This document shows, one piece after another, positions 38,926 to 63,137 of a stretch of 64,000 bases of DNA. The notes beneath the pieces are model-generated. The model saw only the letters and a program-made list of their open reading frames with translations, ran no database searches and was not told where the DNA came from. The DNA is taken from NCBI GenBank assembly GCA_033977485.1, contig CM066985.1:77319045-77383044 (forward strand), given 5' to 3'. The first letter of the stretch is position 1, and every line of letters begins with the position of its first letter. The stretch comes from Hydrangea macrophylla (lineage: Eukaryota; Streptophyta; Magnoliopsida; Cornales; Hydrangeaceae). The position numbers and the translations under genes are program-made.

Positions 38926-39362
38926 AATATCCGATCGATATCCAAAACAGCACACCATACCATTGCTTCAGATACCAGGAATAATATCCGATCGATATCT
39001 AAGCCGCACTCAATACCATCGTTTCGGATACCAGGAATAATATCCGATCGATATCCGAAACAAGCGCCCTAGATACCAGGTATAATATCCGATCGATATC
39101 TAAGCCGTAACTCAATACCATCATTTCGGATACCAGGAATAATATCCGATCGATATCCGAAACAAGCGCCCTAGATACCAGGAATAATATCCGATCGATA
39201 TCTAAGCCGTAACTCAATACCATCATTTCGGATACCAGGAATAATATCCGATTGATATCCGAAACAAGCGCCCTAGATACCAGGAATAATATCCGATCGA
39301 TATCTAAGTCGTAACTCAATACCATCATTTCGGATACCAGGAATAATATCCGATCGATATTG
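38926..39362. repeat. Nine-copy alternating tandem repeat in the Tekay-A LTR
   Basis: The core GATACCAGGAATAATATCCG followed by ATCGATATC occurs nine times. Two spacers alternate: CGAAACAAGCGCCCTA and TAAGCCGTAACTCAATACCATCATTTCG, so the higher-order unit is about 105 bp. Confidence 0.88.
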
Positions 39363-41013: not shown

Positions 41014-42114
41014 CTAATCCTGAAACAACTCGGGGTATCTAGTCCTCATGTCCGACTCTAACTCCCACGACGCTTCTCCCTCGTCATGATGCCTCCACTG
41101 AACCTTAACCAAAGGAACATCTCTTCTTCTCAGCCTCTTGATACTCTGGTCAAGAATCCTCACAGGTCTGTCTTTGTAGACAACATTCTGACTTGTCTCA
41201 ATATCATCAAAATTAACTACATGTGAAGGATCCCGTATGTATTTCCTTAACATACTGACATGGAACACATGAACACCAGACATCTTTGGTGGCAACGCGA
41301 GCCGGTAAGCCACTTTTCCCACACGCTCCAATACCTCGAATGGTCCGATGAAACGAGGTGCCAACTTCCCTCTCTTTTGACCAAAACGTACTACTCCCCG
41401 AACAGGTGAAACCTTAAGGAGTACGTGATCACCAATACTGAACTCCGAATCCTTTCGACGTTGATCCACATAACTCTTGTGTCTACTCTGTGCAGTTTTC
41501 ATTCTTCCTTGACCAGTGAAATCTTTTCATTGGTCTCTCTCACCAAATCTGGTCCCAAAAGTTCTGTGTCTCCCACTTCAGCCCAACACAACGGAGATCG
41601 ACATGGCCGTCCGTACAAGGCTTCGAACGGTGCCATTCCAATACTCGAGTGATAACTGTTGTTATATGAAAATTCGACCAACGGCAAGTGCGTCTCCCAA
41701 GACTCTTCAAAATTGATTGCACAAGCTCTTAGCATATCTTCCATAATTTGATTAACACGCTCGGTCTGTCCATCTGTCTGAGGATGGAAAGCAGTACTCA
41801 TCTTGAGCGAAGTTCCCATAGCCTTCTGCAAACTTTCCCAAAATCCCGAGGTAAAACGTGCGTCTCGGTCTAATACAATCGACACAGGCGCACTGTGCAG
41901 TAGCACCACTTGCTGTATGTACATTCGACTCATCCTTTCTACTGGGTAAGTCATATTGTACGCGATAAAGTGTGCGGACTTCGTCAGACGATCCACAATT
42001 ACCCAAATCGCGTCATGATTCTGTTGTGACCGGGGTAAACCAACCACAAAATCCATAGTTATGTGTTCCCACTTCCATCCTGGAACAGGTAAAGGTTGCA
42101 ACAATCCCGAGGGT
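41014..42114 (-). pseudogene. Tekay-A integrase, DDE core and chromodomain-like C-terminus
   Basis: DDE core (42104-41499): [49 protein letters not shown]-terminal part (41502-41014): GDHVLLKVSPVRGVVRFG, PRFIGPFEVLERVGKVAYRL and KVQWRHHDEGEASWE (chromodomain-like). A frameshift near 41505 joins the two open parts. The upstream end stops at the CACTA insertion; the zinc-binding part of the same integrase is at 63140-63340. Confidence 0.88.
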
Positions 42115-42240
42115 CACTACACCATATGGCCATATTTCTAACAGACAGCTTTTAAGATTTCTAACGGATATATTCGTTACTAATTAGTAACGGATATATC
42201 CGTTAGAAATATTAAAAATCCGTTAGTATTTTCCTTTTAG
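42115..42240. repeat. Left end and subterminal palindromes of the CACTA element
   Basis: Two copies of the TAACGGATATATCCGTTA type (42162-42179 with one change, 42187-42206) plus single CCGTTAG half-sites. Such subterminal repeats are the known binding sites for CACTA TNPA-type proteins. Confidence 0.85.
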
Positions 42241-42389
42241 TGAATTTTTTTCAGTTAAAAATGAGAATCGGTGGCATTTTTGTAAATAAAATTCATAAAA
42301 TAAAAATACGGTGGCAGTTTTGTAATTAAACACTATAAAATTTTCGCACAAAATTTCCCCCTAAAGGGCCTGAACCAGCAAAATTTCCC

Positions 42390-42960
42390 CCAAATTTTCA
42401 CGTTCCAAGGGTTCAGTGGTTCTCTCCCTCTCCCTCTCCCTCTCTTCTTATCTCTCCCTCAATCCATGAACCCTAACCTTAATCACGAACCTTGGCGTCT
42501 CCACCTTTCCCATCCACACCCCTCTCTCTCTCTCTCTCTCTCTCTCCCCGTCTCCCTCTCCCTTTCACTGTCGCCGCCGTCGCTATTTGTCTCCACCGGA
42601 ACTGGTTAGCTCGATCTCTCTCTCTCTCTCTCTCTCACACATACACATACACACATACACACACATACACTAGATCTGGTATGAAACATACACATGCACA
42701 CACCCTAGATCTGTTCGATTTATGCGCTATTGTACTTTGCTTTTTTTTTTTTCCTTTTCTTTTTTGTTCTTTCTTTCTTTTCTTCGTGTTATTAAAATTT
42801 TGGAACCCTGTCCTTCAGGATCTAATATGTTTTACATTTTTCTAGAGTGGTATTGATGTCTGCTACTGCCGATATTGCACGATATAGAGATTACTTCGCC
42901 AACATATGATTTTCGAGCACAGAGTTTCTTATCTCGAGCAGGTATATATTCATATTATAA
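42390..42960 (+). promoter_or_regulatory. 5'-leader-like region of a captured gene or CACTA transcription unit
   Basis: A pyrimidine-rich leader (CTCTCCCTCTCCCTCTCC...) runs into CACTGTCGCCGCCGTCGC and a donor-like CTGGTTAGC near 42603. A candidate exon with TTTTCTAG acceptor (42846) and GCAGGTATAT donor (42941) follows. It resembles the start of a plant gene and lies upstream of all the captured exons in the same direction. No protein match recognised. Confidence 0.4.
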
Positions 42961-43439
42961 CATGTGATAGCAGATGGGCTTGTAAGTTATATGAGATTGA
43001 GGCAAAATTTGTTTAATCTTACTTAATGCAGACTGAGTTTAAATTTCATTTTCATTTTTTTAAGATTCAAATTCAAGATAATAGTTAAAAATTATGTTTT
43101 TATCATCAGGTTGTATTTTATATCCTATTGTATATATGATAACTTTGGATGATCATGGAATAATCTCATCTAACTCTTATTTATATGGGGTTGTTAAATT
43201 TATTCCTACTCGAATTTTCAAGTGTGTGATGAGGATCTACTGGATAGCATTTCAAATGAAAATATGGTCATGGTAAAAAGGAACAGGGGGTATTCCCTTT
43301 AATGCATTCTATTTCTTTTGTTATATTTGATATCATGCTATAATAAAATATTCTACTAAACATACATTGTCCATAGTGATATATTTTGATAGTGTTTTTT
43401 ACTATTAGTGATTGTTATCTATAGCCCTAACTATGTGCT

Positions 43440-45660
43440 TGTCACGCCCCGGAACGGCATAAATAGAGAAAAATAAATTTCCTTTATGGGTCCATAGGGA
43501 ATGACGGGTGAAGTCACATGATTGTCCACACCACGCAGTACTAAGCAACAAAAGTAATAGTGTAGCAGGAATGAAGTCTAGGTTCTGATCACAACGTAAC
43601 ATAAAGTCAACAGAAGTTACTAACTATTACATATCAGAGTCTCGAATTAAATATAAAGCAGCGGAAGTACAAATGCCAAGGCAACATATGCCTGACTACA
43701 AAAAAGTTCTAAAACGGTAAAGGCAATTAGCTACAATTCTAGTCTAGTCTTCAGTTGGCATAAGGGTAGTCCTCGGCGTAGTAGTCTTCTTCGGTCTGAC
43801 CTCCGTCGGGTAAATTCTCCACATGGACTCCGTCACCGGCATAGTAGTCCTCTCCTGCAGGCCCTTCACCTGTATAGTCATAACCAGGATGCGCTGGAAC
43901 GTAGAAATGTCCAGCGGCATAAACGCCGTCAGCTTAATGAAAGCCGAGTGAGTTAGATACTAACAGGGTATCGACTATTGAAGTTATTACAAGTTATAAA
44001 CCGTAACCAAATTAGAATTCAGTAAGGGTAACTCCTTTAATCAAACCAATGATCCGATTACTGACGTTTTACTCATTATAAGACCGATAACGCGTCTTGA
44101 TAGGGGAACAGACTCGACAGTAGTTCAACTCTATAACGCACCATTGCTCATCCACCGCTTTTAAGGACATATGCACAGTTCACCGCATGTCATGGATACC
44201 ACGTTAGTCCATCCCCCGCTTTTAAGAACATATGCACAGTTCACCGCATGTCAGGGATATAACGCTTTAAACAACAGTACATCATTCTATGCCACGACTT
44301 AGCGACGTCTACCAGTGATCACGGTCCACCGCATGTCATAGACACCTTCGTCTGTCTACCGCTTTTAAGAACATATGATTAGATCATCTGGCTATCTTAG
44401 GGAAAATGGTCCGGTTCACCGCAAGTCATAGACACCTTCGTCTGTCTACCGCTTTTAAGAACATATGATCGACCAAAGCCCGCCCACGCAAGGTTCCCGA
44501 ATCTTAGCAAACCTACTTAAGTTCAACTCTATTACCGATACATGACAATCCCAATGTGGCCCGACTACTCTGAATGAAATGAACGTTAACTCCAAAGGAT
44601 TCACGACTATTCCGTTATCTAACATTATAAACATTCTCCGTTAGTCTTGTTGTTACTACGACCCTACGCTGCATTAATTCATTATCATGTCTGTATTACA
44701 ATAATGAAGCATGCTGGGAAGTACTGAACAGTAAATAAACAACTAAACAGTTATTACATCAACTAAACAAGTAAAACAGTAAACTGTAACTTCCAATCGA
44801 TTGATATAGATGTCAATCGATTGGTATAAAAGTAGTGTCAATCGATTGGAAGAAAGTTCAATCGATTGGATCACAATCCATGTCAATCGATTGCATAAAA
44901 TGTCAATCGATTGAGACATGAAAGATGTCAATCGATTGATATAGATGTCAATCGATTGACACTTCGTCTTCTTCACAGAGAAGACTGCCCAGCACATATA
45001 AACGGGAAATACATGGTTTCTTCTCCATTTCTTCATTCAAAACATGTCATAACATCAATGTAAGGCTACCAAGTGAGTTTAGAACTCACCTAGGCGTTAA
45101 GGGTGTGTTTGGGAATGTGTGTTGAAGCTTGGAGCTTCAATGGTGGCTCCTCCCTCTCCTTCCTCTGCTCTCTGTCTTCTCTCTTCTCTTTCTCCTTCTT
45201 CTCTTCTTCTTTCTGGTCTTCTTCTTCTTCTTCCTTCTTGTCTCAGTCCATATCTGTGTGTGTGTGTAAGTATATGTATATATGTGAGTATATATATATG
45301 AGTGTATATATATAACACACACACAAAACCCTCCCTCTCACTCTCTCTGATTTTTCTAAAGAGAAAAACGCAGGAAGAGGGCTGGTTTATATAGAGAGGG
45401 AGTGTTCACGTGGCTTCTCCCCAGCCAGAGCAAAAGAATCTGCCCAGCTGCCTCCAATCGATTGACATAGTGTCAATCGATTGAAACAATCAATCGATTG
45501 AGATAAAGTTCAATCGATTGGTATAAGCAATCGATTGATATACTTGCCAATCGATTGGTATACAAAATATACCAAGGGCAAGGCCAAGCTCATACAAGTA
45601 TTAAAAGAAACATACAAGGTCTTAGTTATATAATATATTACAAGAATACAGGGTATTACA
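43440..45660 (-). repeat. 3' LTR of Tekay-B
   Basis: 2221 bp. Contains repeats of CCGCTTTTAAGAACATATG and CACCGCATGTCA (44150-44470), eight CAATCGATTG palindromes in 44790-44965 and six more in 45450-45560, and a TATA-like ATATATATATGAGTG stretch near 45290. The neighbouring polypurine tract on the minus strand is GTGAGTGGTGGATGA. Confidence 0.95.
44150..44470. repeat. Interspersed repeat cluster in the Tekay-B LTR
   Basis: Four units combining CACCGCATGTCA (or CACCGCAAGTCA) with CCGCTTTTAAGAACATATG; the last two also share GACACCTTCGTCTGTCTACC. The same cluster is present in the 5' LTR at about 53890-54210. Confidence 0.85.
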
Positions 45661-47688
45661 TCATCCACCACTCACAAAAGATTTCGTCCCCGAAATTCGA
45701 AATAAACTGGGTTAAAACAAAAATGGAAACTTCTCTCGCACCTCCGACTCCAGCTCCCATGAAGCTTCTCCTTCGTCGTGGTGCTTCCACTGGACCTTCA
45801 CTAGCGGAATATCCTTATTTCTGAGCTTCTTCACTCCTCGGTCTAGAATACGCACTGGTCCTTCGTTGTAGGTCACGTTCTCGTTCACCTCGATATCTTC
45901 AAAACTGATCTCGTGCGCTGGGTTGTGGGCACATTTCCTCAACATGCTGATGTGGAAAACGTTGTGTACTCCTGACATCTTTGGCGGCAACGCAAGTCGA
46001 TAAGCAACCTTCCCAACACGTTCTAGTATCTCGAACGGTCCGATGAATCGCGGCGATAACTTGCCTCTTTTCTGTCCGAATCTGACGATACCTCGAACTG
46101 GCGAGACTTTAAGTAGCACATGATCTCCAACTGCAAACTCTAGATCTTTCCATCGCTTGTCGGCATAGCTCTTGTATCTGGATTGCGCTGTCTTCATCTT
46201 TTCTCGTACAATCTGGATCTTCTCGTTGGTTTCTCGAATCATCTCGGGCCCAAGTAGTTGAGTATCTCCGACTTCGGCCCAACACAGCGGCGATCGGCAA
46301 GGTCTTCCATACAAGGCTTCAAACGGTGCCATCCCTATGCTCGTGTGGTAGCTGTTGTTGTAGGCAAACTCGATCAAAGGTAGATGCTTCTCCCATGAAC
46401 TCTCGAATTCAATGACACAGGCTCGCAACATATCTTCCATCACTTGATTGACTCGTTCTGTCTGACCGTCTGTCTGTGGGTGAAAGGCTGAACTCAAATT
46501 TAATGAAGTTCTCATTGCTGTCTGAAGGCTCTTCCAGAATTCTGCGGTAAAGCTTGAATCTCGATCTGAAACTATTGAGATGGGTACACCGTGCAGTCGC
46601 ACTACTTGCTCTAGATACATCCGGCTCAATCTTTCAACAGGGTGCGTCATGCTGTAGGCGATAAAATGTGCTGACTTGGTGAGTCGATCTACTATTACCC
46701 AAATAGCGTTGTGGTTTTGCTGAGACTTCGGCAATCCAACCACAAAATCCATGGTGATATGCTCCCATTTCCATTAGGGAATCGGTAGCGGTTGTAGGAG
46801 TCCAGGTGGTTTCTGATGCTCTGCCTTCACTTGTTTGCAAATAAGACATTGCGATACATACTCGGCCACTTCTCGCTTCATTCCTTGCCACCAGAAGTTT
46901 CTCTTCAAGTCCTTGTACATCTTGTTTCCTCCTGGGTGGATAGTCATCCTTGACTTGTGTGCTTCGTCCAGAATGTTCTTCCTGAGTCCATGGTCATTTG
47001 GCACACAGAGTCTACCTTTGCATCTCAGTGCTCCGTCCGTACTAATACTCCATATCTCGGGTTCCTTTGCGGACATCTTGGCAAACCATAACTTTAAATC
47101 TTCGTTCGACTGTTGAGCTTCCAAGATGCGGCTGATGAGAGTCGGTTGCACGACAAGACATCCAAAGCGTTGTCCTCCTCCTGATTCCACTGGTTGAAGA
47201 TCGAATTCGACTAATGTCTCCATTGCTCGCCATTCTCTAATCAAAATCGAAGCAACCAAAAGGCGCGGCCTCCGGCTCAGAGCGTCGGCTACAACATTTG
47301 CTTTACCCGGGTGGTATTGTAAAGAGAAGTCGTAGTCCTTGAGTAGTTCCATCCATCTCCGTTGTCGCATGTTCAACTCCTTCTGAGAGAATAGGTACCT
47401 TAAACTCTTATGATCTGAGAACAGGTCGAACTTTTCTCCATACAAATAGTGTCTCCAAATCTTCAAGGCGAACACGATTGCGGCTAGTTCTAAGTCGTGC
47501 GTCGGATAGTTCTTCTCATGCGGCTTCAATTGTCTTGATCCGTATGCGATGACATTCCCTTCTTGCATTAGCACACAACCAAGTCCTTGGTGTGATGCAT
47601 CACTATAGATTATGAATTGTTCACCACTCTTAGGTATTGCAAGCACGGGTGCTGAGGTTAGTCTCTCTTTCAATTCCCGGAATGCATC

Positions 47689-49182
47689 TGAAGGAAAAAG
47701 TGGTTTAAAGTTAGAGTTTAAACGCGCAGCGGAAATAGGTTAAGTTATAAAACTTTTGGTATTCCAGGATCTACTACTTGTCAATTCCATAGATGCGTAC
47801 AAGGGTGCAAGAATTATACCTTAGTGTCTTGAACCCAATTCTGAAACTTTAACTTCCAGCAGCCTGCACTAGATGATCTTCACCCTTATGACTCCTGCGG
47901 ATGCCTGCCGGAAAGACTAGGGTTGGTGGGAACCCTAATAGAGAGGATAGGAAGGTTTTGGGAAGACTATGATAGTTTCTGCAGCTTCTGCGTATAAAAA
48001 TGGCGATCACCTTCTTCCAGAACGCAGCTGCCCTATTTATAGATTTCCAGAACCGACCTAGACTTCGATCGATCGAAGTGACTTCGATCGATCGAACCTT
48101 CGATCGATCGAACCATTCTCGATCGATCGAACCTGCTGACTTCAATCGATCGAACATACTTCGATCGATCGAACCTGTCTTAACAACTTCCTCAAGTGTC
48201 TTTCCAAGCATCCTAGCGGAGCTAAGAGTGGGACCTCCTAGGCTCTTTATTGTTGGCTCAGACCAGTTTGTTAATTACCATGACCAAACTCTTTGATCAG
48301 CAAACTAACTAACTGGTCAGTTAACGTTTATTCCACTATAAAACGATAACTGAACTCCAATGCAAAAGAACATATCCGAAGCGATAACTAGACTTGTATG
48401 GTGTACTAATGTCCCTCTACCGTCAGCATTCGTAATCATATTCAGGTAGTCGGATAACTGTTACTGTCAACCTGAATCATGATTACTTCTTGTATTCCTT
48501 GAGTCCCATTCACTACTCATGATTACCAAACATGTTGATAACTCTTATCAACAAGACTGCAGTACTCAGTAATCAACTTGGTGACATTCTCAAGGGAATG
48601 CTTACTCTGAATTAGAGGGTAGATACTATCTTGACAATATATGTTCACAACCCTATGGACATGACATACCCAAGATACCCAGGTGTTGATCTTCTATAGA
48701 CCTCACTGATTGGTAAGTCAAAGCAGCCATATCCATAGTCTGTGTTCATAATCATCTCAAGATTGAGAACACGTACCTTATACAAGTTATGAGTTCCTAT
48801 TGACTGTTGACAGCCTTAAGCGTCAATAGGAAAGCTCAGGTCCGTCAATGCACTATAAGCACTAGCATATCAACTAAGAGCTACACTCTAGTGATTGAGA
48901 TTAATCACTCCATCCAATGGTAGTTAATTATGCTACAGTGTAGACCTGATGAGGTATCCAGTCTCATCATCCACTGTGACATATTCTAAGTATCAAAGAA
49001 TAGTAATTCGTATCTCACTTGTGTGTATCTCATACACACACAAATTGCTTACTATGATACTTAAGGACAAAACAATCATCTCATGAAAGAAACATATACA
49101 ATGAAATGTAAAGCTGATATCCATATATTATAATGCTAATGTCTCATACATAAAGTAATGGTTTGAGGGCACAAACCCAACA
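47689..49182 (-). repeat. Solo LTR, probably of a Ty1/copia element, inside Tekay-B
   Basis: 1494 bp with TG...CA ends: on the minus strand it begins TGTTGGGTTTGTGCCCTC and ends TTTTTCCTTCA. The 5-bp target duplication GCATC is exact (47684-47688 and 49183-49187). The start resembles many plant copia LTRs; no internal genes remain, so the superfamily is an inference. It holds a cluster of TTCGATCGATCGAA palindromes (48066-48176). Confidence 0.85.
48066..48176. repeat. Cluster of TTCGATCGATCGAA palindromes in the solo LTR
   Basis: Six copies of CGATCGATCGAA or close variants (one drifted to CAATCGATCGAA) spaced about 17-22 bp. The sequence is perfectly self-complementary around each centre. 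Confidence 0.9.
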
Positions 49183-52114
49183 GCATCCTCATGTCTATCG
49201 GTCCATTCGTACTTCGTCTCTTTCCTAGTCAGGCTTGTCAACGGTCCTACGATTCTAGAGAATCCTTCCACAAATTTTCGATAATACCTAGCCAATCCAA
49301 GAAAACTCCTAACTTCGGTCGCATTGGTTGGTCTGTTCCAGCTCAAGACTGCATCGATCTTAGATGAGTCTATGGAAATCCCATCCTGTGATATCACATG
49401 TCCCAGGAATTTAACTTCCTGAAGCCAGAATTCACATTTGCTGAATTTCGCATACAGACTGTTGTCTCTAAGAGTCTGTAGAGCAATTTGTAGATGTTTC
49501 TTATGTTCTTCTTCCGTCCTTGAATAAATTAGAATGTCGTCGATGAATACTATAATGAATTGATCCAGATAGGGTCTGAATACTCTATTCATTAGGTTCA
49601 TGAATACGGCCGGGGCATTAGTCAATCCAAAAGACATCACTAGAAATTCGTAGTGTCCATATCTCGTTCTGAAGGCAGTTTTCGGTATATCTTTCGGCCG
49701 AACTAGTAATTGATGGTATCCTGAACGCAAATCGATTTTTGAGAATATCCTTGATCCTTGTAGTTGATCGAATAGGTCGTCTATCCGGGGAAGTGGATAC
49801 CTATTCTTGATCGTGACCTTATTCAGCTCCCTGTAGTCGATACAGAGTCGTAGCTCTCCGTCCTTCTTTTTCACAAATAAAACTGGTGCTCCCCAAGGTG
49901 ATGTACTCGGGCGAACAAAACCTAAATCTTTAAGTTCCTGAACTTGCTTCTTCAATTCCAACATTTCTGTTGGCGCCATCCGATACGGGGTCTTGGAAAT
50001 CGGCAATGTTCCGGGTGCTAACTCAATGCAGAAGTCTATCTCTCTCTTCGGCGGAAGTCCTGAGATACTTCGGAACACATCTTCAAAGTCTTGAATAATG
50101 GGGATCTGGTTGATAGTAAGCTCCGTGCTTGAAGTCTTAATCGTGGCTAGGCAGCTCGTGATAAACATGTCGCTCAACGGTTGGCACTGAAATCTGATCT
50201 GCGGGCAACCAGGCGTTGAAAAGACAATGGTCCGACTAACACAATCCAGGTTAGCGCCATACTTAGTAAGCCAATCCATTCCTAGGATCACGTCGAACTC
50301 AGACATTGACAGGACTATCAAGTCTGCTGGAAAATTCCTATCCTCTAGTGTCAAGGGACAATCCTTGCACACCTTACCTAACTTAACGGATACTCCCAAG
50401 GGCGAAACGGCATTAAGGGTCGGCTCAAGTGCTAGGGGTAGCAAACCCAAATCACGTACCATCTTAATAGCTATGAAAGAACGGGCGGCACCGGTATCAA
50501 AAAAAGCTCTAACTTGACAGTGAAATAAAATGAGTGTACCTTCCAAGTTTTGCTGTTCCTCTGCATTATACCCTGCATTGTCAGGGATGATGGCATTCAC
50601 CCTAACCTGTCCTTGCTGTCCTTGAGCAGGCGCTCCATAGTAGCCTCCACGTGGTGCTCGACAATCCTTGCTTATGTGACCAGGCTTGTTACAGTTGCGG
50701 CAAACGAGGTCATTACGCCGGTTGGTCTTGGGGGCTGTGCAATACCTTGCAATATGTCCGGGCACTCCACAGTTAAAACATCCATCAGTGTTTTGTCGCT
50801 GGGCGACGGGCTGTGCCTGAGGTGGTCCTCGCTGTTGATTTTGTTGTCGAGGAAAATTTGCTTGGGGCTTCCTTGTCCCATCCCATGTGCGCTTAGTTCC
50901 CTGATAGTTGTTGGTCTGGGGTTTCCATCCTTGATTGTTCCTTGATGATTGCACGGGAAAGTTCCTTGGTTGGAAGGTCCTGGGTGGAGGTCGATTCACT
51001 GGTGGTCCTTGCACAGGGTAAGCATCCTTTTCTAAACTTGAAGCAAGACGGACAATCCCTTCAAACGACTGGCCCAGATGGCCTATCATCATGTGCCGGA
51101 GGTGTGGGTTGAGTCCTTGGTGAAATCGCTTGACCTTCTTGGCGGAGGTGTCTATCATATGCGGAGCGAAACGGGAAAGTCGCTCAAATTGTGTAGTATA
51201 CTCCCTGACTGTCCAGTTTCCTTGGGTTAGACTCAGGAAATTCCTCTCTTGTTGGTCTCTTTCATCCTCAGGGAAGTACTTCTCAAGAAATCGAGTCTTG
51301 AATGCTTCCCAAGGCATTCTCCTTGCAGCGTCAATCCCAATCGTGGCTCTCTCGGCCTCCCACCAATCTGCGGCGGAGTAAGTCAGTTGAAATGCGGCTA
51401 GACGTCTCTTGTCCAGCTCACTGCACTCCAGGGCTTCAAAGATTAGCTCCAACTCTCGTATCCATTGCTCTGCTTTCCAGGACTCTGCCATGCCGTCGAA
51501 CTTCTCGGGTCGCAGGCCACGAAATCGTTCCAACAGTTTATCGCCTGTCTACCTTGGAGGGACAACGTGGTTGTTGCCATTGTCGTTGGTGGCATGATTG
51601 TAGGTATCGCGGATGTGTTCCATCCGTTGCATGAAAGCTTCGAAGACTCCAGTTGGGTCCATACCCTCGGGAATGGGTGCTCCCAGTCGTGCTTGGTTCC
51701 TTGTGGGTCCCACCATAGTGATCCGTGTGAGGTGTACCTATGAAGGATCTAACAATTAGCTGACAATCTTCTCGGGGAGATGATCATACTAAAATAACAG
51801 GAAGCATAACAGGAATCAACATCACAACCATAACATAATAATGAGATGATAACAGAAATAATCAAGAGAAACGATCTGCCATATATATATACCCAAAAGA
51901 TGTACAGCGGAGTACACAACAGATCATCTGTGTACCGCGTAGTACATGATCCTATACAAGATCTAAACAAAAGAAAGATATATACAAAACCACTACTGGT
52001 GGCTACCTATACAAAAAGGCTACGGTCAATAGCTGTCTATGCAAGCGTCAAAAGTAAGCGGACAACATGTCCTAAAGTCAGACAAAAAAAGTCTAAGTCC
52101 TAAAGGTACTGGAC

Positions 52115-53038
52115 TCAAATGTTGTCCACATCGGATCCATAGATGGAAGCCTCGTCCTCTGGGGTAACCTCAGACAAAACATCATCCTCATCCATGTCAT
52201 CGTCATCCATCATGTCCTCATCCTCTATCACTACATCCTCGATCAGCTCGGGTCCATCATGCTCCACAACAGCTCCCAGATCTCCTGCATCAGCTGCCAT
52301 GTCAGCCTGGGCTGCATCAAATGCGGCTGCAAGTGCCTCCGCCTGTACCATAGCCTGTGCCAACTCCGGTGCTCCGATCTCAAATCCATGGGGATGTGCA
52401 GCCATTTCTGCAGCCCACTCAACTGCTAGCTGTGCTATAACTCGTCCTGGTAAGACTGGTACTACTGCATCATCGTCTGCGGCTACCTCCTCTTCCTCTA
52501 TCGGATAACCCTCTGCAACTACAATATCTACGCCAACTGGCACGTCCATACCGGCTGGGTCCACGGGGTCCTCCTCCTCTGGATCATACTCCGGCTCCTC
52601 GTCATCGGTGTCCTCGTCCTCTTCATCCTCCATCTCCTCATCTGCATCCTCTGGCTCATCGTCGTCATCGCTCTCATCATCATCCTCCGAATCCTCATCT
52701 GCTGGGGGTGCATCAGCCATGTCTTCCTCTGGTGGGGGTGGAGGTGCTGCTCTAACATGTGCAAGTAGAACCTGGTACGAAGAACGGTCTCGTAACATCA
52801 GTAGAGAATCCTCCTCGATGCGTTTGAAGGTCTCCTTGCGGTAGATCATCTCCTGACGTATCACTTCTGGGTCCTGGGTCCCAAATCTCTGCTGCTCGAT
52901 CCGCATGTCTCGCTCTGTCTCTGCAATAGCTCTCTGTCTAACCTTCCAGGCATAGTACTCTGGATCTGCTGGCCCAATACTACTCTCATACACATAGTGT
53001 CCTCCGAACTCGTCTGGAACGAATAGCGGCGGTGCCAT
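52115..53038 (-). CDS. Extra ORF of Tekay-B between the 5' LTR and gag: highly acidic protein
   Basis: 307 codons, intact, same strand as gag-pol, starting 119 nt inside the primer-binding site and ending about 400 nt before the gag ATG. Residues about 25-100 are charged and probably helical (YYAWKVRQRAIAETERDM, EVIRQEMIYRKETFKRI). Residues about 105-170 are almost entirely Asp/Glu with Ser and Pro. A hydrophobic, Ala-rich helix-prone stretch follows (about 205-250), then a second acidic tail (EDEDMMDDDDMDEDD). No signal peptide, membrane segment or known domain is recognised. Extra ORFs in plant gypsy elements are known, but I cannot assign this one a function. An acidic histone- or nucleic-acid-mimic role would be speculation. 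The frame is open although gag-pol carries stops. Confidence 0.75.
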   Translation of the reverse strand: MAPPLFVPDEFGGHYVYESSIGPADPEYYAWKVRQRAIAETERDMRIEQQRFGTQDPEVIRQEMIYRKETFKRIEEDSLLMLRDRSSYQVLLAHVRAAPPPPPEEDMADAPPADEDSEDDDESDDDDEPEDADEEMEDEEDEDTDDEEPEYDPEEEDPVDPAGMDVPVGVDIVVAEGYPIEEEEVAADDDAVVPVLPGRVIAQLAVEWAAEMAAHPHGFEIGAPELAQAMVQAEALAAAFDAAQADMAADAGDLGAVVEHDGPELIEDVVIEDEDMMDDDDMDEDDVLSEVTPEDEASIYGSDVDNI

Positions 53039-53156
53039 GCTACCTGAAAAGGGACTACCTTAAGTCAGAACTAATCTTAATACTCATCTATAGAATCTCA
53101 AGGTTCTAGGACCAGATGGTGTGGGACAATCTGTGAGCGAAAAGGTATACAACCTA

Positions 53157-53169
53157 GGCTCTGATACCA
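53157..53169 (-). promoter_or_regulatory. Primer-binding site of Tekay-B
   Basis: Minus-strand TGGTATCAGAGCC, complementary to the 3' end of plant initiator tRNA-Met, 7 nt from the 5' LTR end at 53177. It primes minus-strand cDNA synthesis. Confidence 0.9.
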
Positions 53170-53176
53170 AAAATCC

Positions 53177-55399
53177 TGTCACGCCCCGGAACGGCATAAA
53201 TAGAGAAAAATAAATTTCCTTTATGGGTCCATAGGGAATGACGGGTGAAGTCACATGATTGTCCACACCACGCAGTACTAAGCAACAAAAGTAATAGTGT
53301 AGCAGGAATGAAGTCTAGGTTCTGATCACAACGTAACATAAAGTCAACAGAAGTTACTAACTATTACATATCAGAGTCTCGAATTAAATATAAAGCAGCG
53401 GAAGTACAAATGCCAAGGCAACATATGCCTGACTACAAAAAAGTTCTAAAACGGTAAAGGCAATTAGCTACAATTCTAGTCTAGTCTTCAGTTGGCATAA
53501 GGGTAGTCCTCGGCGTAGTAGTCTTCTTCGGTCTGACCTCCGTCGGGTAAATTCTCCACATGGACTCCGTCACCGGCATAGTAGTCCTCTCCTGTAGGCC
53601 CTTCACCTGTATAGTCATAACCAGGATGCGCTGGAACGTAGAAATGTCCAGCGGCATAAACGCCGCCAGCTTAATGAAAGCCGAGTGAGTTAGATACTAA
53701 CAGGGTATCGACTATTGAAGTTATTACAAGTTATAAACCGTAACCAAATTAGAATTCAGTAAGGGTAACTCCTTTAATCAAACCAATGATCCGATTACTG
53801 ACGTTTTACTCATTATAAGACCGATAACGCGTCTTGATAGGGGAACAGACTCGACAGTAGTTCAACTCTATAACGCACCATTGCTCATCCACCGCTTTTA
53901 AGGACATATGCACAGTTCACCGCATGTCATGGATACCACGTTAGTCCATCCCCCGCTTTTAAGAACATATGCACAGTTCACCGCATGTCAGGGATATAAC
54001 GCTTTAAACAACAGTACATCATTCTATGCCACGACTTAGCGACGTCTACTAGTGATCACGGTCCACCGCATGTCATAGACACCTTCGTCTGTCTACCGCT
54101 TTTAAGAACATATGATTAGATCATCTGGCTATCATAGGGCAAATGGTCCGGTTCACCGCAAGTCATAGACACCTTCGTCTGTCTACCGCTTTTAAGAACA
54201 TATGATCGACCAAAGCCCGCCCACGCAAGGTTCCCGAATCTTAGCAAACCTACTTAAGTTCAACTCTATTACCGATACATGACAATCCCAATGTGGCCCG
54301 ACTACTCTGAATGAAATGAACGTTAACTCCAAAGGATTCACGACTATTCCATTATCTAACATTATAAACATTCTCCGTTAGTCTTGTTGTTACTACGACC
54401 CTACGCAGCATTAATTCATTATCATGTCTGTATTACAATAATGAAGCATGCTGGGAAGTACTGAATAGTAAATAAACAACTAAACAGTTATTACATCAAC
54501 TAAACAAGTAAAACAGTAAACTGTAACTTCCAATCGATTGATATAGATGTCAATCGATTGGTATAAAAGTAGTGTCAATCGATTGGAAGAAAGTCCAATC
54601 GATTGGATCACAATCCATGTCAATCGATTGCATAAAATGTCAATCGATTGAGACATGAAAGATGTCAATCGATTGATATAGATGTCAATCGATTGACACT
54701 TCGTCTTCTTCACAGAAAAGACTGCCCAGCACATATAAACGGGAAATACATGGTTTCTTCTCCATTTCTTCATTCAAAACATGTCATAACATCAATTTAA
54801 GGCTACCAAGTGAGTTTAGAACTCACCTAGGCGTTAAGGGTATGTTTGGGAATGTATGTTGAAGCTTGGAGCTTCAATGGTGGCTCCTCCCTCTCCTTCC
54901 TCTGCTCTCTGTCTTCTCTCTTCTCTTTCTCCTTCTTCTCTTCTTCTTTCTGGTCTTCTTCTTCTTCTTCCTTCTTGTCTCAGTCCATATCTGTATGTGT
55001 GTGTAAGTATATGTATATATGTGAGTATATATATATATGAGTGTATATATATATAACACACACAAAACCCTCCCTCTCACTCTCTCTGATTTTTCTAAAG
55101 AGAAAAACGCAGGAAGAGGGCTGGTTTATATAGAGAGGGAGTGTTCACGTGGCTTCTCCCCAGCCAGAGCAAAAGAATCTGCCCAGCTGCCTCCAATCGA
55201 TTGACATAGTGTCAATCGATTGAAACAATCAATCGATTGAGATAAAGTTCAATCGATTGGTATAAGCAATCGATTGATATACTTGCCAATCGATTGGTAT
55301 ACAAAATATACCAAGGGCAAGGCCAAGCTCATACAAGTATTAAAAGAAACATACAAGGTCTTAGTTATATAATATATTACAAGAATACAGGGTATTACA
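53177..55399 (-). repeat. 5' LTR of Tekay-B
   Basis: 2223 bp, near-identical to 43440-45660. Examples of the few differences: CTCCTGTAGG against CTCCTGCAGG, ACGCCGCCAGC against ACGCCGTCAGC, and CACAGAAAAGAC against CACAGAGAAGAC. Confidence 0.95.
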
Positions 55400-55404
55400 G
55401 TGCT

Positions 55405-55655
55405 TCTGGTCAACTATGTAGTAAATAGATAAATGAACTTCTCGGAATAAATTCAGAGTAGTTATCTTTCAAATGAAAATATGGTCATGGTAAAAAGGAA
55501 CAGGGGGTATTCCCTTTAACTGCAAATATGAATTATTGTGCAATTTGTGAGTTAATTTGCGAGTGGCAAGTGATTTTCGTTTTCTTTAAGCTTTAAGTGA
55601 CGTGATTTGTTTATTCTATTTCATTTCTTATGGTGTATCTAATGTGGTTGTTTCT

Positions 55656-55714
<59 letters not shown>

Positions 55715-56289
55715 TGGGGTGGGGGGGGGGGGGGGGGGGAAGGGGTACCCCCAGTTTAGAAATTGTGTAAAGATTCAATGTAGAAGGTGTAATGGACCAA
55801 TGGTCATCAAAAGTAGTATTGAAACTTGTTATATGTTTCTATCATTATAGACTCACATTTCCTTCCTTCATTAGTCTTCATCATGACTTATAATCCCCTG
55901 AGGTTGTCACTAAGACAGCAAGTGTTTTTGATTTGCTGTGCTGAATCTAAATCCATTAATGACCCTAAAGGTACGGGGTACTTGTATGTGTTGTACTTGT
56001 ATTGTTGATTGTACAAGAAAGGTGGTAATTTATTTTCACTTTGCTATTATTACGGACGAAGTTTGTAGATGTACAACATGGAGATTGAAACTAAATAGTC
56101 TTTTGTGCTTGAGAGTTGGGCAAGGTTTAGTGAGATCCTAGCTGAGACAACCCAATAAGAATTTCAAGCGGCAAATTCATCAGCATCGTAAGAATTACAT
56201 ATGGCATGAAGTGAAAGCTTGACATCTTACACTTCATTCGTAACCTTCACCTCCTTTACCCTTGACTTCCATTTTTGGTCCTTGTGCAG
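55405..56289. other. CACTA interior between Tekay-B and the MCM5 exons; microsatellite and possible captured intron
   Basis: Contains a 52-bp copy (55468-55519) of sequence also found at 43251-43302, a (GA)n tract (about 55657-55709) followed by a G-rich run (to about 55739), and no recognisable exon. A short frame encoding CRRCNGPMVI near 55780 is unassigned. Confidence 0.5.
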
Positions 56290-57486
56290 CCACAAAGGAG
56301 CAGTTGCAGTTAGACAGCCTTATAAAAGAGTTGTAGGAATAGAAGAAACTAATGATGCTAATTCTCGGAGCATTGCTAGTGTCACCGCAGATGAGGTAAT
56401 TGTGGAAGTTATCAGAAATTAAAACTTTAAAATTTTATTCCGTGGGCATGGTATTTGCGAGGTTGTAATTGCAATGTCAAATGACTTTTAAGTAGGTAAT
56501 AACTATGCTTTAGCTCTGGGTATCTTTTGTAGGAATCTTATGTAGTGATAAAATTTCAGTTTGTTATGTCTTTGAAATGGGATAGAGCTCTATATTTTGG
56601 TGGATCATTCCACATATCTGTCCTCATTGTTGTACTTAGATCAATAATTCTGTGAAGTAGTTGGGGTTTTTGTTAGTTTCTTGATTATACTAGCCATGCC
56701 CTTGCATAGTATTCTATTTTTTTCTTTTTCTTTTCCTTGTTGACAGCACTTAGGGTGTGTTTGATAACCCAATTAAGTGATAAAAATAAAAGCTTTCAGT
56801 GCTTAATTTTTTTCAGTGCGTTTGATAATAAACACTTAATTGAAAAAGCAGCAAAAAAATCACTGAAAACTTTAAGTGAAAATTCCACTGAAAATAATCA
56901 CTGAATGTAGTCTATTTCAGCAGTTAAAACATTGTTCTTAGTATTGCAAATTCAATCACTTAAAATTTTCAGTACTTAAAATTCAGCACTTAATTTTCAG
57001 TACTTAACTTTCAGTTTTATCAAACGGAGCCTTAGTGTATCCCTTGCATATAGTGTGTTACTTTCATTTAGTAATTTGTTCTTGACTTTCATTCAGTTTT
57101 ATGAAAGCTTCAGTTTTATCAATGTGCTGCTCTTGGGGGACCCATCTACTGCTAAATCACAGGTGTGTTGGGAATTCCTTGTTTTGTGCTTGAGTTGGGT
57201 TTCTCATATAGTCATATTAAGGGCTGCTTGCTGCAATTTCTAATCACTTGCCATATTTAAGTTTTCTTTATTTGGTTCAAGCCATTATATAGGGTTGTCT
57301 CTTTTTAACAGTAAAGGAAGTCTTGTTCTTGCTTTCATCACCACACAAATTAAGTTGCTAATGTAATTATTTTATTTGTAGTTTCTTAAGTTTGTTGAGA
57401 AGACAGCTCCAATAGCAGTTTATACTTCAGGAAAAGGCTTGTCTGCTGCTGGTCTTACAGCTTCTGTGATTAGAGATACCAGCTCG
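56290..57486 (+). pseudogene. MCM5: Captured fragment of MCM5 (replicative helicase subunit), three exons
   Basis: Exon 56290-56395 (acceptor TTGTGCAG, donor GTAATT) encodes HKGAVAVRQPYKRVVGIEET. The next recognisable coding piece, about 57118-57162 with donor GTGTGT, encodes INVLLLGDPSTAKSQ, the Walker A motif of MCM helicases. Exon 57382-57486 (acceptor TTTGTAG, donor GTAAGT) encodes [20 protein letters not shown] and [12 protein letters not shown]. These follow plant MCM5 in order, but about 60 residues between the first and second pieces are missing and a Tourist MITE sits in that interval. MCM5 is part of the MCM2-7 ring that unwinds DNA at replication origins. This fragment lacks the N-terminal domain, Walker B and arginine finger, so it is not a helicase. 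Confidence 0.88.
56753..57031. mobile_element. Tourist-like MITE within the captured MCM5 fragment
   Basis: 279 bp, ends GGGTGTGTTTGATAA and TTATCAAACGGAGCC, flanked by TTA on both sides (56750-56752 and 57032-57034). Internal text is rich in CACTTAA/TTAAGTG motifs. Confidence 0.85.
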
Positions 57487-57489
57487 GTA

Positions 57490-58958
57490 AGTGCTTCAAC
57501 ATGTAAAGTGTTTATGCTGAATTGCACACATAGCCTTTGTTTGATTCATGGAATTAGTTAGGGAAAGGAAAGGAAAACATCAAGGATAACACTTTTCTTT
57601 GTTTGATTAACTATGAAAATAAAAAGGAAGAGAAAATATAAGAAGAAACAAGTTAAATTTTTTTTTTTTTTTTAATTTCTTACGTTATAATTGTACTTTG
57701 ATATTTTTCACTTTTTGTAATTTTATTGAAATTATAGTACAACACAAGAGAACTAGTTTTCCTTCTTGTTTTCCTTTCCTTGTTCCTTTTCTTCTACAAA
57801 TTATTGAAATCATTTTTTTTTCTTCTCTTCTTCTTCTTCTTCGTCAATTTGGAGAGATGTTTTTTTTTTTTTTGGCTTGATTCTATAACCTGGCCTTTGT
57901 ACTCATTCTAATAGACTAACATATAAAACACAATAACTAGAAACGTCAAATCTTATGTATTTTAACACTGTAGCAATGCCAAAAAAAAGGTTTAGCATGG
58001 AGGAAAATGGTGTTTTGCATTTAAGATGCTCTTGAATGATTAAGCTTTTGGATTAAAAAAAACTCTCTAATTCTAGATAAATGTTTCAGATCAAGGAAGC
58101 ACAATTCAAAAAGGTCATAAGAATTTTCACTAGATGCACACCTGCATCCGCACTTTCGTGGATTTTTTTTCCTTTCTTTTGAAGCTTTGAGGAGTTGGAT
58201 TACTCGTCAAAAGGCTATTGGTATTCACGTCTTAATTATGAAAAAAATCAGGACAGTGTAGTAGAATAGTTTAAATAATTAATTATCTAAAAGTGTATAT
58301 TGTTAATATTTTATACAAGTATCTCGCGCACCTGCATCCTATCTTTTGGAAAATTGATGTATCCTCCACACTTACATTTGTGCATCCACAATGGTTCTTC
58401 CTAACTTCAGATATAAAATTAGTTCTTGTGAATCTTATGCTCTTGAACGTTAACTTCGTCTTAAAATAGTTGGAGGTTACGTAGTCAAGATCAAATTTTA
58501 AATACAGAGTTCTTTCAGAATTAATGAATGAACTATTCTTGTTAAAGCATATCTGGTTTCCTTCTTCTCCAAGGAAATGAAGCAATTTGTTTGTTGCTTC
58601 TGCACACCGAACAAGACTGTAGGTTCTTGACTAAAATTGGCTAACTTGCTAATTTTACTTATGATATGTACCATTTAGTTTGAGCTCTAAGATGTAATTT
58701 ATCTATTTCGTATTTTTATTTGTTCTATTATTGAGCATGTTGAGTCTGAGTGAGTATTATTTCATAGGTTATAAGAGTATTGCATCTGGTTGATTATGTC
58801 TCTAATGTTTGGACAAGAATGTGTGCTATTTATGGAGAAAATGGAAGAGTTGTTAATCTATCTCTGCCACTAAGAAAGGGGAAAAAAAGTGAGAGAAAGA
58901 ATAACCAAAGAGTTCTCATTAATGTAAGGTCTGAGAATGATTCATGATGTAGTGAGCA
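57490..58958. other. CACTA interior with no recognised exon
   Basis: AT-rich, with T-runs and a pair of inverted GGAAAGGAAAGGAAAAC / GTTTTCCTTTCCTT-like stretches around 57560-57780. Open stretches near 58080 and 58770-58920 match nothing I recognise. They could be intron sequence of captured genes or exons of an unrecognised one. Confidence 0.4.
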
Positions 58959-59275
58959 ATGAGTAGAATTTTTCCATCTGTGAGTGCTTTTATTATATCA
59001 ACTGAACTTGCATTCAAAACCTTTCGGGTTTGTTATCCTGCTGTTGATCTGTTCAATCAATGCACTGCTGTAAGAAAGCAACCAAACAATGTAAGTGTGT
59101 ATTTTGGGCAGAGACTTTCTCAGGTACTACTATCAAAGGACCATGATCACTTCTGCTTTGATAGACTTGTTCCATCCCCTAGTTGGATAGTGAAGGCATG
59201 GGAAGCATCTGAAGAAGAAATATTGGCTAGTGGGGGCTTGGATGCAGTGGTTTTTCTCAGAATGGTTGTTTTCAG
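58959..59275 (+). pseudogene. Captured exon of an OSCA/CSC1-like calcium-permeable channel
   Basis: Coding match from about 59070 (RKQPNNVSVYFGQRLSQV) through FDRLVPSPSWIVKAWEA and EEEILASGGLDAVVFLRMVV, ending in phase at a GTAGTT donor (59276). This is the N-terminal first-helix and cytosolic region of hyperosmolality-gated channels (CSC1/OSCA family). The earliest part (58959-59065) is less like the family and may be poorly conserved or non-coding. Full proteins have about 750 residues and 11 membrane helices; only about 70-100 residues are here. It sits between the MCM5 and HflX fragments on the same strand. Confidence 0.85.
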
Positions 59276-59900
59276 GTAGTTTTGTCCTTTCTTAACTTTT
59301 AGATAGTGGAAGCGTATCCCACTTGTATTTTTCTTGGCTGATAGATTGTCTAGAATAGTCAACTTGTTGATCTATTGGAAGTTGGTGAATCGATGTCATG
59401 GTTCAGCGAGTAAAAAAAAGAAGTGTTCATTCTCGGCTGGGTTTAGTGGATTGGAATGCCTAAAATTGGATCAGGCTCAGACTCTGTTTCAATTGTATTG
59501 ACTTTAAAGAAAACAAGTGTTGTGTTGGTTTGATACAGAACCAGTTCTTGGTGTATATTTAACTCAGGCATAGACTCCTATGTAACCAAAAAACAGTTAG
59601 CTACATGAATTATGAACTATGTTCTATTCTGAACGACAAATCCGGTCTTGTATGACCTAAACTGGCTCTAATTCTTTTTCAATATGGGCCCCGGCAGAGG
59701 GAATGCTCTTAAGTTCTTTTGTTCTTTGTGCATAAGCTACTATTAATTAATTACTTAAGCATATATCAGAGAGCCTTAAGAGCATTCTTTGTGCTTTCTG
59801 TACTGTCTGAAATTTGAAGAAATAGTATTATATTTATGCATATACTGATGGTAATCATCTAGACTTTCTGCTGATCTGATTTTAACTGCTTAATGTTCAG

Positions 59901-59974
59901 GAGAAAGGTTCTTCTCAGTGATACAGTGGGGTTTATATCAGATTTTAACTGCTATTTGATCGGCAGTGTATTGG
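59901..59974 (+). pseudogene. Captured exon of an HflX-type GTPase
   Basis: Acceptor TAATGTTCAG and donor GTGAGC bound a short exon encoding RKVLLSDTVGFISDF. This matches the G3 (DTVGF) region of HflX-family GTPases, which act on ribosomes, in plants mostly in organelles. The residues after it (NCYLIGSVLG) no longer follow the family. Short length keeps the confidence moderate. Confidence 0.6.
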
Positions 59975-60098
59975 GTGAGCAATTTTCTTCCATACTTTTC
60001 CCTTTTCTCTTTAATTAATATTAATATATCTTGATATCACATTCATTGGCCACTTTTTGTAACACCGTAATTGAGTATGATGGAAATGAATTTCTCAG

Positions 60099-60391
60099 GT
60101 GGGTATGACAAGGAAGACAAGGCAGCAAGGCCTTGTGACTTGGCAGCTCTAAAATACCGGGGTCCTACTGCCACAACCAACTTCCCTGTAATAAACTATA
60201 TTTTCTTCTATGCCTTCATGCCATTCAAATGAATAGTGATCTATATCTGCATGAAAAGTTGCGTAACCAAGAGCAAGAACCTAACAACTAATTAAGATGT
60301 TTCCATGCCTGACTTAGGTTTCAAATTACGCCAAGGAGCTTGAGGAGATGAAGCATGCGACAAAGCAAGAATTCATTGCATCGCTAAGAAG
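60099..60391 (+). pseudogene. Captured exons of an AINTEGUMENTA-like AP2 transcription factor
   Basis: Exon 60099-60187 (acceptor TTTCTCAG, donor GTAATA) encodes [20 protein letters not shown]. Exon 60318-60391 (acceptor ACTTAG, donor GTTTGC) encodes VSNYAKELEEMKHATKQEFI and ASLRR. Together they form the end of AP2 repeat 1 and the linker to repeat 2 of the ANT/AIL/PLETHORA group, with exon borders where those genes have them. Changes at conserved sites (RPCD for the usual RAYD, KYRG for KYWG) show relaxed selection. The DNA-binding beta-sheet start and repeat 2 are absent. Parent genes control organ growth and meristems; this fragment cannot bind DNA in the normal way. Confidence 0.88.
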
Positions 60392-60763
60392 GTTTGCTTA
60401 CTTGTTACTTCCTGTCCTAAATTAAGGGACTTTTTTTTTTTTTTTAAGGAAGCTTTTTGATTATTGTGTTCTTTTTTTTTCTTTACATTTTATTATTGAC
60501 CTACTTTTAAGGTTAAAATTCTACTGTCACATCAAATGAGAAGTGAGAGGTCTATGCAATAACAGATAGTTTCACCAAAAGAGACACATGCAGTGAGTGT
60601 GTGCTGATATGTCCCCATGCAGTATTTATTTATTTGCTACCAAACAGGTCATTAATTGTGACAACTTGACCAAAAAAGGAATAAAAAGTAGATCAATGGA
60701 TAGATTTCTAATATACATTCTGTTAAAAAAGAACCAATTGCATTGGTCCAAAAAAATCAACCC

Positions 60764-61078
60764 AATCTTATCAAAGCAGCTGTGACCCCGGCCTTTGTTA
60801 CTCAATTTCCTGGTCTGAACGGGCTGGGTCTTTCCTTGGCCCGGCTGGACCTAGCTGTGGGTAGGGTTATACCAATGCACACGCACCCTGCTGCATCAGA
60901 AGTCCTAGTTGTTATCCAGGGGACTATTTGTGCTGGATTCATATCTTCTTCAGCGAATACGGTTTATTTCAAGAGTCTTAATAAGGGGGATTCAATGATT
61001 TTCCCCCAGGGGTTACTTCACTTCCAAATTAACTTCGGTGCCACTCCGTCTATCGCATTCGTTAGTTTCAGTAGCCAA
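60764..61078 (+). pseudogene. Captured germin-like protein (cupin) fragment
   Basis: About 105 codons open without stops: [60 protein letters not shown] and [20 protein letters not shown]. Cupin box 1 is visible (HTH, then E, then the second-box His in LLHF), so all four metal ligands are present. Similarity to germin-like proteins stops after AFVSFSS. The signal peptide and N-terminal strand are absent, so it would not be secreted. Parent proteins are extracellular, metal-binding cupins. It is the longest continuous captured coding piece. Confidence 0.88.
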
Positions 61079-61725
61079 ATTAACTTTGTGTCTGTGTGTA
61101 CGTATATCGATTCACTACACCATATGGACCCATAGTTTCATTTGCATAAGTTACCATGTATATGTGCAAGTATTAAGTACTAAATATTTTCTTATATGTA
61201 CAGAAAAACACCTTATTATCCAATTCCTTGTTCCTCTATTTCCCGTCTTTCGTTTTAGTGTCGACTTGATACAATTTCCACAAACCATGGGCAAGCGTGT
61301 CATTGGATATGAAGCAATCGTTTACTCATCTGAACAATCGTTTTAATCTGTTGGTTACAATATTCTTGGATGCTTGCTTGTGTGTGTACTGTATATATAT
61401 TTTCGAATTGCAGTATAGCTTTTCTATTGTTGTTAGGATGCCCTTATTTTATACTATCTTCTGATATTTTACCTCACAAGTTGCAAGTATATGATTACTA
61501 GGGAAACCATTGCACGTAGACTGATGGTATCAAGTTAGTCATTTTAATACTCCTTTATTTGGATTTTCACCCTCACTAGTTATGGTGAAAGATCTCTCAT
61601 TAGGGGGCAATTTTGGAAGAAAATGCTTTCTTTTGATGCAAAGATTATGTTCCCTTAATAAGTTGGGTTCCCAGAGATGAGTAAATCTAATTTATTTTAG
61701 ATAAATTTGTGGAAATTTGGTGCAG

Positions 61726-61821
61726 AAGCTGAAGACTCGTGTTATAAGGAAAGATGTGAATCCAGAGTGGAATGAAGACTTAACTCTTTCCATTTCGGAT
61801 CCTAATGCTGCAATCAAGCTG
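61726..61821 (+). pseudogene. Captured exon of a C2-domain protein
   Basis: Acceptor TTGGTGCAG and donor GTAAGT bound a 96-bp exon encoding KLKTRVIRKDVNPEWNEDLT and LSISDPNAAIKL, beta strands 2-4 of a C2 domain as in small plant C2-domain (CAR-type) or ArfGAP-C2 proteins. The calcium-binding loops are mostly outside this piece. Same strand as the other captured fragments. Confidence 0.8.
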
Positions 61822-61829
61822 GTAAGTTG

Positions 61830-62760
61830 ATTGCTATCTTTCCAACACGTGATTAACTTCTACTGCAATAGAGGGGGCCTAAGACTCAGTTTAGCGCCAA
61901 ATGAGCTATACCCACTTTGCAAATATCCAAAGAATCTAATACACTCGGAGCCCATTTGGTATTGTTGTGGGAATTACAGATTTTTCCTGTAATAATGTCA
62001 CTAAAAGACGAGTGAGTTGCTAAAACTTTAGGTTCTTGAATATCTAATTAGCAGTTGGAGGTTTGTTTAGCTTCAATTACCAACTAAGTAATTATCGTCT
62101 TTCTACTATTTATTACCAGAATGATTAACAGATCTTGTTGCTATTCATGATGGAAGAAAACAACTGTAGTAATGTTGGAGTGTGATCATTGATTCCTGTT
62201 CAATGGTCACACCTACTTCTCTATTTTAAGGTTTATTCCAAAATACATACATAGATAAGATATATATATCTAAGGTCTCTCACCTTGTCTTCTTGGTAAT
62301 TGACACGGGTTTTTGAGGGCAGCGGAGCCATGAGTAAAAGAGAAAGCTATGGTGGTAAAAAGAGCTCATTGGCCTTTCTATATGTTATGGTTTTCTTAGG
62401 TAGGCTTTGTTGAAGTGGGGTTTGTGATATGGCTCGAGTGTTGGTTAAATTATGTTCAAGAAGATTGAATGGTGAGGGATGTAGTTTATATAACTACTTA
62501 AATTTCAGACATGTTTTGTTTGTTAGTTTAGGTTTGAGTGGAAAAACTCTTTAAATTTCTGACTTTGTTAGACATGTATGAACTCTTTACTTTGTTATGA
62601 TTATTATGGATTATCTTTGTTGTTTTGGGTATAGAGATGTTGGTTTCACATGGTTATAGATTAATCTTATTATTTTTGTGTTTAGTATAGATTAATATGC
62701 TTGTTAATTAGGTGAAAAAAAAATTGGGAAGCATATAAATAAATATATTTTTTTTCGATT
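61830..62760. other. CACTA interior with no recognised exon
   Basis: AT-rich sequence between the C2-domain exon and the right subterminal repeats. No coding match or inverted repeat found. Confidence 0.45.
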
Positions 62761-63137
62761 TATGAATATTTCTAACGGATATATCCGTTAGTAAATCCGT
62801 TAGTATTTTTTTAAAAATACTTTGGAAATTACTAACGGATATATCCATTAGTAATAGTTAACAAACCGTTAGTATTCATTATAAATTTTTTAAAATTTGT
62901 TGAAAAAAAACCGTTAGTAAGTAGCTTTCTAACGGATATATCCGTTAGAAATTCTTTGATTTACTAACGGATTTACTAACGGATATATCCGTTAGTAAAA
63001 TTAATTTTACTAACGGATATATCCGTTAGTAAATCCGTTAGTAATATTACTAACGCTAAAATACTAACGGATATATCCGTTAGTAACATTTATTCTAACG
63101 GATATATCCGTTAGTAATGAGGCAATATGGTGTAGTG
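62761..63137. repeat. Right subterminal palindrome array and terminus of the CACTA element
   Basis: Seven copies of TAACGGATATATCCGTTA (one changed to ATATCCATTAG) plus half-sites, ending in GGCAATATGGTGTAGTG. Denser than the left end (two copies). Confidence 0.92.

Follow-up and report, generated by a model that had tools for sequence, protein, structure and literature searches.

A CACTA transposon of Hydrangea macrophylla that carries pieces of several unrelated plant genes

The sequence analysed here, called the window below, is a 64 kb stretch of the 2.22 Gb genome of Hydrangea macrophylla (C4:77319045-77383044). It contains a CACTA DNA transposon without recognisable transposase, carrying pieces of several unrelated plant genes: five donors are supported and a sixth, HflX, is possible. 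The element was later interrupted by a 12-kb long terminal repeat (LTR) retrotransposon. We consider it probable that the cargo was gained by fusion of neighbouring members of the transposon family, moved by a transposase that would come from elsewhere. Fusion is favoured because an intact left terminus lies buried in the element at 61113, and because the left and right ends have different nearest relatives in most of the elements compared. Two siblings of the element, L009 and L011, are used for comparison. Its structural features are the following.

42112-42114, no strand: target-site duplication GGT, left copy
42115-63137, plus strand: CACTA element, 21,023 bp with the retrotransposon nested in it (9,058 bp once this and one GTGCT are taken out)
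42115-42232, plus strand: left terminus, with the terminal inverted repeat CACTACACCATATGG and two subterminal palindromes CTAACGGATATATCCGTTAG (at most 2 mismatches)
42233-43439, plus strand: left arm, common to the window and sibling L009
43440-55399, minus strand: nested Ty3/Gypsy LTR retrotransposon, 11,960 bp
61113-61130, plus strand: buried left terminus CACTACACCATATGGACC, 18 bp, as at the left end of L011, with no subterminal repeats behind it; shared by the window, L009 and L011
62396-63137, plus strand: right arm and terminus, with seven subterminal palindromes within 62700-63137
63138-63140, no strand: target-site duplication GGT, right copy

The element has the hallmarks of the CACTA (En/Spm) superfamily. 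Its inverted termini start with CACTA (CACTACACCATAT ... ATATGGTGTAGTG), it is flanked by a 3-bp duplication, and its subterminal palindromes lie close to the two ends, none being found in 55401-62700. The left junction reads GGT followed by CACTACACCATATGG at 42115, and the right one CAATATGGTGTAGTG followed by GGT at 63137. The site before insertion could also be recognised. The left and right flanks resemble, at 82% and 77%, neighbouring segments of a retrotransposon found elsewhere in the window (3381-6346), the similarity reaching as far as the insertion point. When the flanks are joined with a single GGT they align straight through this other Gypsy copy, which is thus a relative of the empty site. 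The copy is also similar, at about 73%, to the nested pol, assigned by Pfam to Ty3/Gypsy; a 204-aa frame of the left flank had no Pfam match. A preliminary description of this DNA had proposed CACTA termini with a GGT duplication, and both are confirmed. It had also named two ends from different elements as grounds against its reading. For the insertion itself, an origin of the two ends from unrelated insertions is ruled out by the empty site and the GGT duplication, and sibling L009, which is flanked by a duplication of its own, has transposed as one unit.

No transposase was found in Pfam scans of 55401-63139 (plus strand), 55701-63139 (minus strand) and 42221-43439 (both strands), which together cover almost the whole CACTA sequence around the nested retrotransposon. 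The absence of a visible transposase, as first described, stands, and the element shows no transposase of its own, a feature of the autonomous CACTA members only. Within the left arm (42221-43439, six frames) there was no noteworthy Pfam match (best E 0.04); the weak matches to AdoMet_dc (E 0.17) and DUF4519 (E 0.04) were set aside. Matches to DUF3915 obtained in other scans, likely due to low complexity, were set aside as well. Rfam gave 0 matches.

Over half of the interval 42115-63137 consists of the later retrotransposon, which the preliminary description had omitted, so that the CACTA element proper measures about 9.06 kb. That the 21 kb could be entirely CACTA is ruled out by this nested element, which has its own duplication, GTGCT, at 43435-43439 and 55400-55404. 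Its LTRs (43440-45660, 2,221 bp, and 53177-55399, 2,223 bp) are 99.19% identical, a Kimura two-parameter distance (K2P) of 0.0072, and its minus strand encodes gag, protease, reverse transcriptase, RNase H and integrase zinc-binding domains. Since L009 holds the exact empty site of the retrotransposon, arrival took place after the split from L009. The LTR distance is on the low side of the divergences between the window element and its siblings (K2P 0.0088-0.0154 outside the L011 left end), yet not clearly under the lowest of them, the difference being small. Self-comparison with the other Gypsy copy of the window revealed a gap, in that about 1.6 kb at 47674-49257, containing short CGATCGAT tandem repeats, breaks the nested pol.

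All recognised gene pieces lie within 56290-61821, between the intact ends.

56290-57486, plus strand: MCM5 fragment, exons placed at 56290-56395, 57097-57162 and 57382-57486, with AG..GT boundaries
59073-59275, plus strand: CSC1/OSCA (HYP1-like) fragment, GT donor at 59276
59901-59952, plus strand: HflX-like fragment, about 18 codons, AG acceptor and no donor; also in L011
59967-60391, plus strand: AP2-class fragment, 8-nt microexon at 59967-59974, exons at 60099-60187 and 60318-60391
60755-61081, plus strand: germin-like (ABP19/20 type) fragment, within the open frame 60704-61114; no intron
61726-61821, plus strand: C2-domain exon with AG..GT boundaries, closest solved chain AT3G17980

Captured host coding DNA from five donors was recognised by Pfam, PDB or protein comparison, as in a Pack-CACTA element. 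Two joined MCM5 exons matched with E 7.8e-19 in Pfam and 7e-20 for the best PDB chain (the first exon by itself had no Pfam match). The CSC1-like HYP1 piece matched in PDB (3.6e-11) and, using a 107-aa frame, Pfam RSN1_TM (1.5e-8). The germin-like piece matched Cupin_1 (E 1e-30) and is 83% identical over 109 aa (frame residues 18-126) to an ABP20-like protein. The C2 piece matched AT3G17980, also named CAR4, in PDB (2.7e-11), and the C2 family in Pfam (7.8e-7). A Pfam scan of whole translated frames returned the MCM, C2 and cupin pieces and not the CSC1 piece. The AP2 peptide matched WRI1 in PDB (1.5e-28) and had no Pfam match; the AP2 class first proposed is thus supported, and the name AINTEGUMENTA-like, given in the preliminary description, is probably right. 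Of the six donors first claimed, HflX is the one not confirmed: a 20-aa query had no PDB match, and the identity of the piece at 59901-59952 is putative.

The five supported donors are all on the plus strand, as had been claimed. No Pfam match was obtained on the minus strand of 55701-63139, nor for the minus-strand open frame 58283-58630 and a frame near 61200-61345. The claim of mostly intact GT/AG splice sites holds for three MCM5 exons, three AP2 exons and one C2 exon, for which AG..GT boundaries could be placed; it does not extend to the CSC1 piece, whose acceptor was our choice, to the HflX piece, which has no donor, or to the germin piece, which has no intron. Because the boundaries were picked by looking for AG and GT, the sites are present but their use is not implied. 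Within the MCM5 fragment, a repeat at 56752-56998, perhaps a small inserted element, occurs in two copies, in both orientations, in the family copy L027 (86% and 81%).

The two siblings carry overlapping sets of this cargo. L009 shares with the window 42114-43439, 55401-57481, 58182-58471, 60292-60519 and 60980-63137 at 96-99%. It therefore holds the left arm, MCM5, the last AP2 exon, the last part of germin and C2, flanked by a CCT duplication of its own; overlapping cargo has thus been mobilised within one unit, as in Pack-CACTA elements. L011 shares 58693-59075, 59361-59443, 59776-59956 and 59953-63134 at 94-98%, and 118 bp of left end at 89%. The CSC1 piece is in neither sibling, since L011 departs at 59075 and L009 is without 58472-60291. 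Each sibling also holds about 2.5 kb of its own sequence that has no match in the window element, and these extra blocks had no Pfam match at E 0.05. The right terminus of L011 is cut, around 9873, by a sequence starting TGTAACGCCCC that resembles the start of an LTR.

The wider family was searched for in the genome with the right arm (62600-63139) as query. Out of 2178 first-look places, 40 were scored, the window's own included, and all 40 matched the query. Nineteen copies, again including that of the window, were examined; in L023 and L028 no left end lay within the sequence examined, and in L011 the right terminus is interrupted. Perfect 3-bp duplications were present in all 16 copies with both ends readable. 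Six-frame Pfam scans covered most of 11 other copies (L013 in part, L017, L019, L020, L022, L024, L025, L027, L029, L030 and L031), leaving out L014, L015/L016, L021, L023, L026 and L028. No transposase was detected in them. Pooled over copies, matches at E up to 0.001 were, besides DUF3915, to HSP90, BSD2, Met-tRNA synthetase, MAP65, PDF2-like, mitochondrial carrier, PAS, O-FucT, protein kinase and Surp domains. Gene pieces are thus common cargo in the family. A comparison of cargo between copies had been suggested in the preliminary description, and its answer is twofold: L009 and L011 carry overlapping sets, and other members carry other gene pieces.

Two observations bear on how the cargo was acquired. 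The first is the buried terminus. It is exact over 15 bp in the three siblings, and over 18 bp with respect to the left end of L011. Using random sequences built on base-pair transition frequencies, chance would give 2.15 matches with up to 3 mismatches over the 117 kb of interiors, against 2 places observed. The one in L027 has 3 mismatches and is at chance level, whereas an exact match, as at 61113, is far rarer by chance than a 3-mismatch one. No exact buried terminus was present in the other elements among the 17 examined.

The second observation is that the two ends of an element often differ in their nearest relatives. Between the window element and L011, K2P is 0.0127 over the right 3.17 kb (98.3% identity over 3.2 kb) and 0.129 over the left 118 bp. 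In the pair L022 and L027, right ends are 1.4% apart, and left ends 16.9% apart. The nearest relative differs between left and right end in 11 of the 17 elements, and the correlation between left-end and right-end distances is weak (Mantel r 0.21, p 0.11), falling to r 0.07 (p 0.43) once three siblings are removed. An earlier run on 14 elements had given r 0.11 (444 of 2000 permutations). When left ends were cut at 125 bp, the Mantel test gave r 0.01 (p 0.46); a deletion in L019 and L027 had distorted that comparison, which was therefore replaced.

Fusion would proceed as follows. Two or more family members would insert close together, and the outer left end of one, together with the outer right end of another, would be used as a single unit, with transposase coming from elsewhere. 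The inner ends would be removed by deletion or, in one case, stripped of their subterminal repeats only, and the host DNA between the fused members would become cargo. Repeated fusion would accumulate pieces of unrelated genes, and small deletions and microhomology swaps may then have diversified the siblings. A bolder, tentative proposal, which we hold to be somewhat less probable than its contrary, is that the whole family acts as a combinatorial exon shuffler through repeated fusion of neighbours, so that every element newly combines a left arm, stacked gene pieces and a right arm of different parentage. The terminus at 61113 would then be the fossil of one such fusion.

Several points weigh against fusion. 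Both ends agree on the nearest relative in 6 of the 17 elements (three sibling pairs). A buried terminus was found in one lineage only among the 17 elements, so the fossil is that of a single event, and buried subterminal repeats were found in none. The copies were picked by similarity at the right end, which favours shared right arms, and the comparison of left ends covers only about 115 bp. Template switching or recombination between copies could also yield reassorted ends. Finally, both the direction in which the pieces moved and the surroundings of each captured block are presumptive.

The strongest competitor, possible but in our view doubtful, is error-prone gap repair: an element broken on excision would be mended with DNA copied, by way of microhomology, from a number of unrelated templates, the buried terminus being filler taken from another element. 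The cargo pieces are indeed short and from several genes, a passage of PMC8978399 points to a published capture mechanism (Rubin and Levy), and breakpoints between siblings carry short overlaps of 10 bp (L009 7492-7501), 3 bp (L009 7718-7720) and 4 bp (window 59953-59956). However, these overlaps mark differences between siblings rather than proven captures, and gap repair of one element does not in itself yield a new left end (12-17% divergence) beside a right arm that is 97-98% identical. It is unlikely that a larger ancestor already had the cargo, the mosaic being due to ectopic recombination or gene conversion between copies that swapped left arms without capture by fusion. This would agree with the separate blocks that the window shares with L009 and with L011, and with the right arms of several lengths common to copies with different left ends. 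But it explains neither the source of the pieces nor the buried terminus, and L009 and L011 each have about 2.5 kb unmatched in the window element. It is highly improbable that the locus forms a new chimeric gene that is expressed and selected for: the MCM5, CSC1 and AP2 exons do chain on one strand, in their native frames, into a computed open frame of 205 codons, on which a role as template for chimeric proteins would rest, but the two between-donor frame matches amount to a 1-in-9 chance, the chain omits the HflX and germin pieces, needs a CSC1 acceptor of our choosing and the 8-nt microexon, has its first methionine inside the CSC1 piece with no start codon upstream, closes in the C2 exon, and includes a CSC1 piece absent from both siblings. 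Most likely, the cargo is carried passively.

The window element is a real multi-donor gene-capturing CACTA element of an already known kind. Soybean Tgm-Express1, a CACTA element of the wp allele, resembles it in that its CACTA ends enclose fragments, both exonic and intronic, from five unrelated genes of the host, according to the description in PMC1947982. As described there, it measures 5.7 kb and is spliced into chimeric transcripts of its host gene, whereas the window element, of 9.06 kb, has five or six donors and sits in a retrotransposon. Because five fragments in one CACTA element were thus already published, the number of donors alone is not exceptional. Pack-CACTA and Pack-TYPE elements of Arabidopsis, rice and maize are alike in that elements with terminal inverted repeats hold coding DNA captured from several loci, and PMC8903248 gives maize Pack-CACTAs the greatest number of loci among Pack-TYPE groups. 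The same source describes a model, credited to Catoni et al. 2019, of two neighbouring insertions mobilised as one, the inner termini being lost by deletion or mutation. For the window element, by comparison, the evidence comes from sequence and consists of an exact terminus buried inside it and of ends whose relationships differ between left and right. The Tpn1 family of Japanese morning glory, set beside it by its description in PMC8195511, is similar in its shared subterminal regions and wide range of captured gene fragments. In maize, a count given in PMC2773423 is of 5 CACTA elements with gene fragments in 22 Mb.

The rest of the window contains other repeats. A hAT transposase, with BED finger, RNase-H-like and dimerisation domains, is split over two overlapping frames at 20368-22385 (plus strand). 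The GC-rich segment 28249-38128 (53-56%) has a reverse transcriptase on the minus strand and long extra open frames on the plus strand; one of these frames contains a 'putative gypsy type transposon' domain. A tandem array with a 102-bp unit (3.8 copies, 97% matches) occupies 38970-39360, and 500 N at about 2283-2782 mark an assembly gap.

For annotators, the element is a caution, as the five gene-like fragments in the window are transposon cargo. Its main value is that it offers a case in which fusion can be tested as a capture route. More than one route has been proposed for CACTA and Pack-type elements, among them neighbour fusion, as presented in PMC8903248, and the older mechanism cited in PMC8978399. 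Here, the question of capture becomes testable by comparison of copies, since a single assembled genome offers a large family whose siblings are about 1% apart and in which cargo differs, ends are reassorted and a terminus lies buried.

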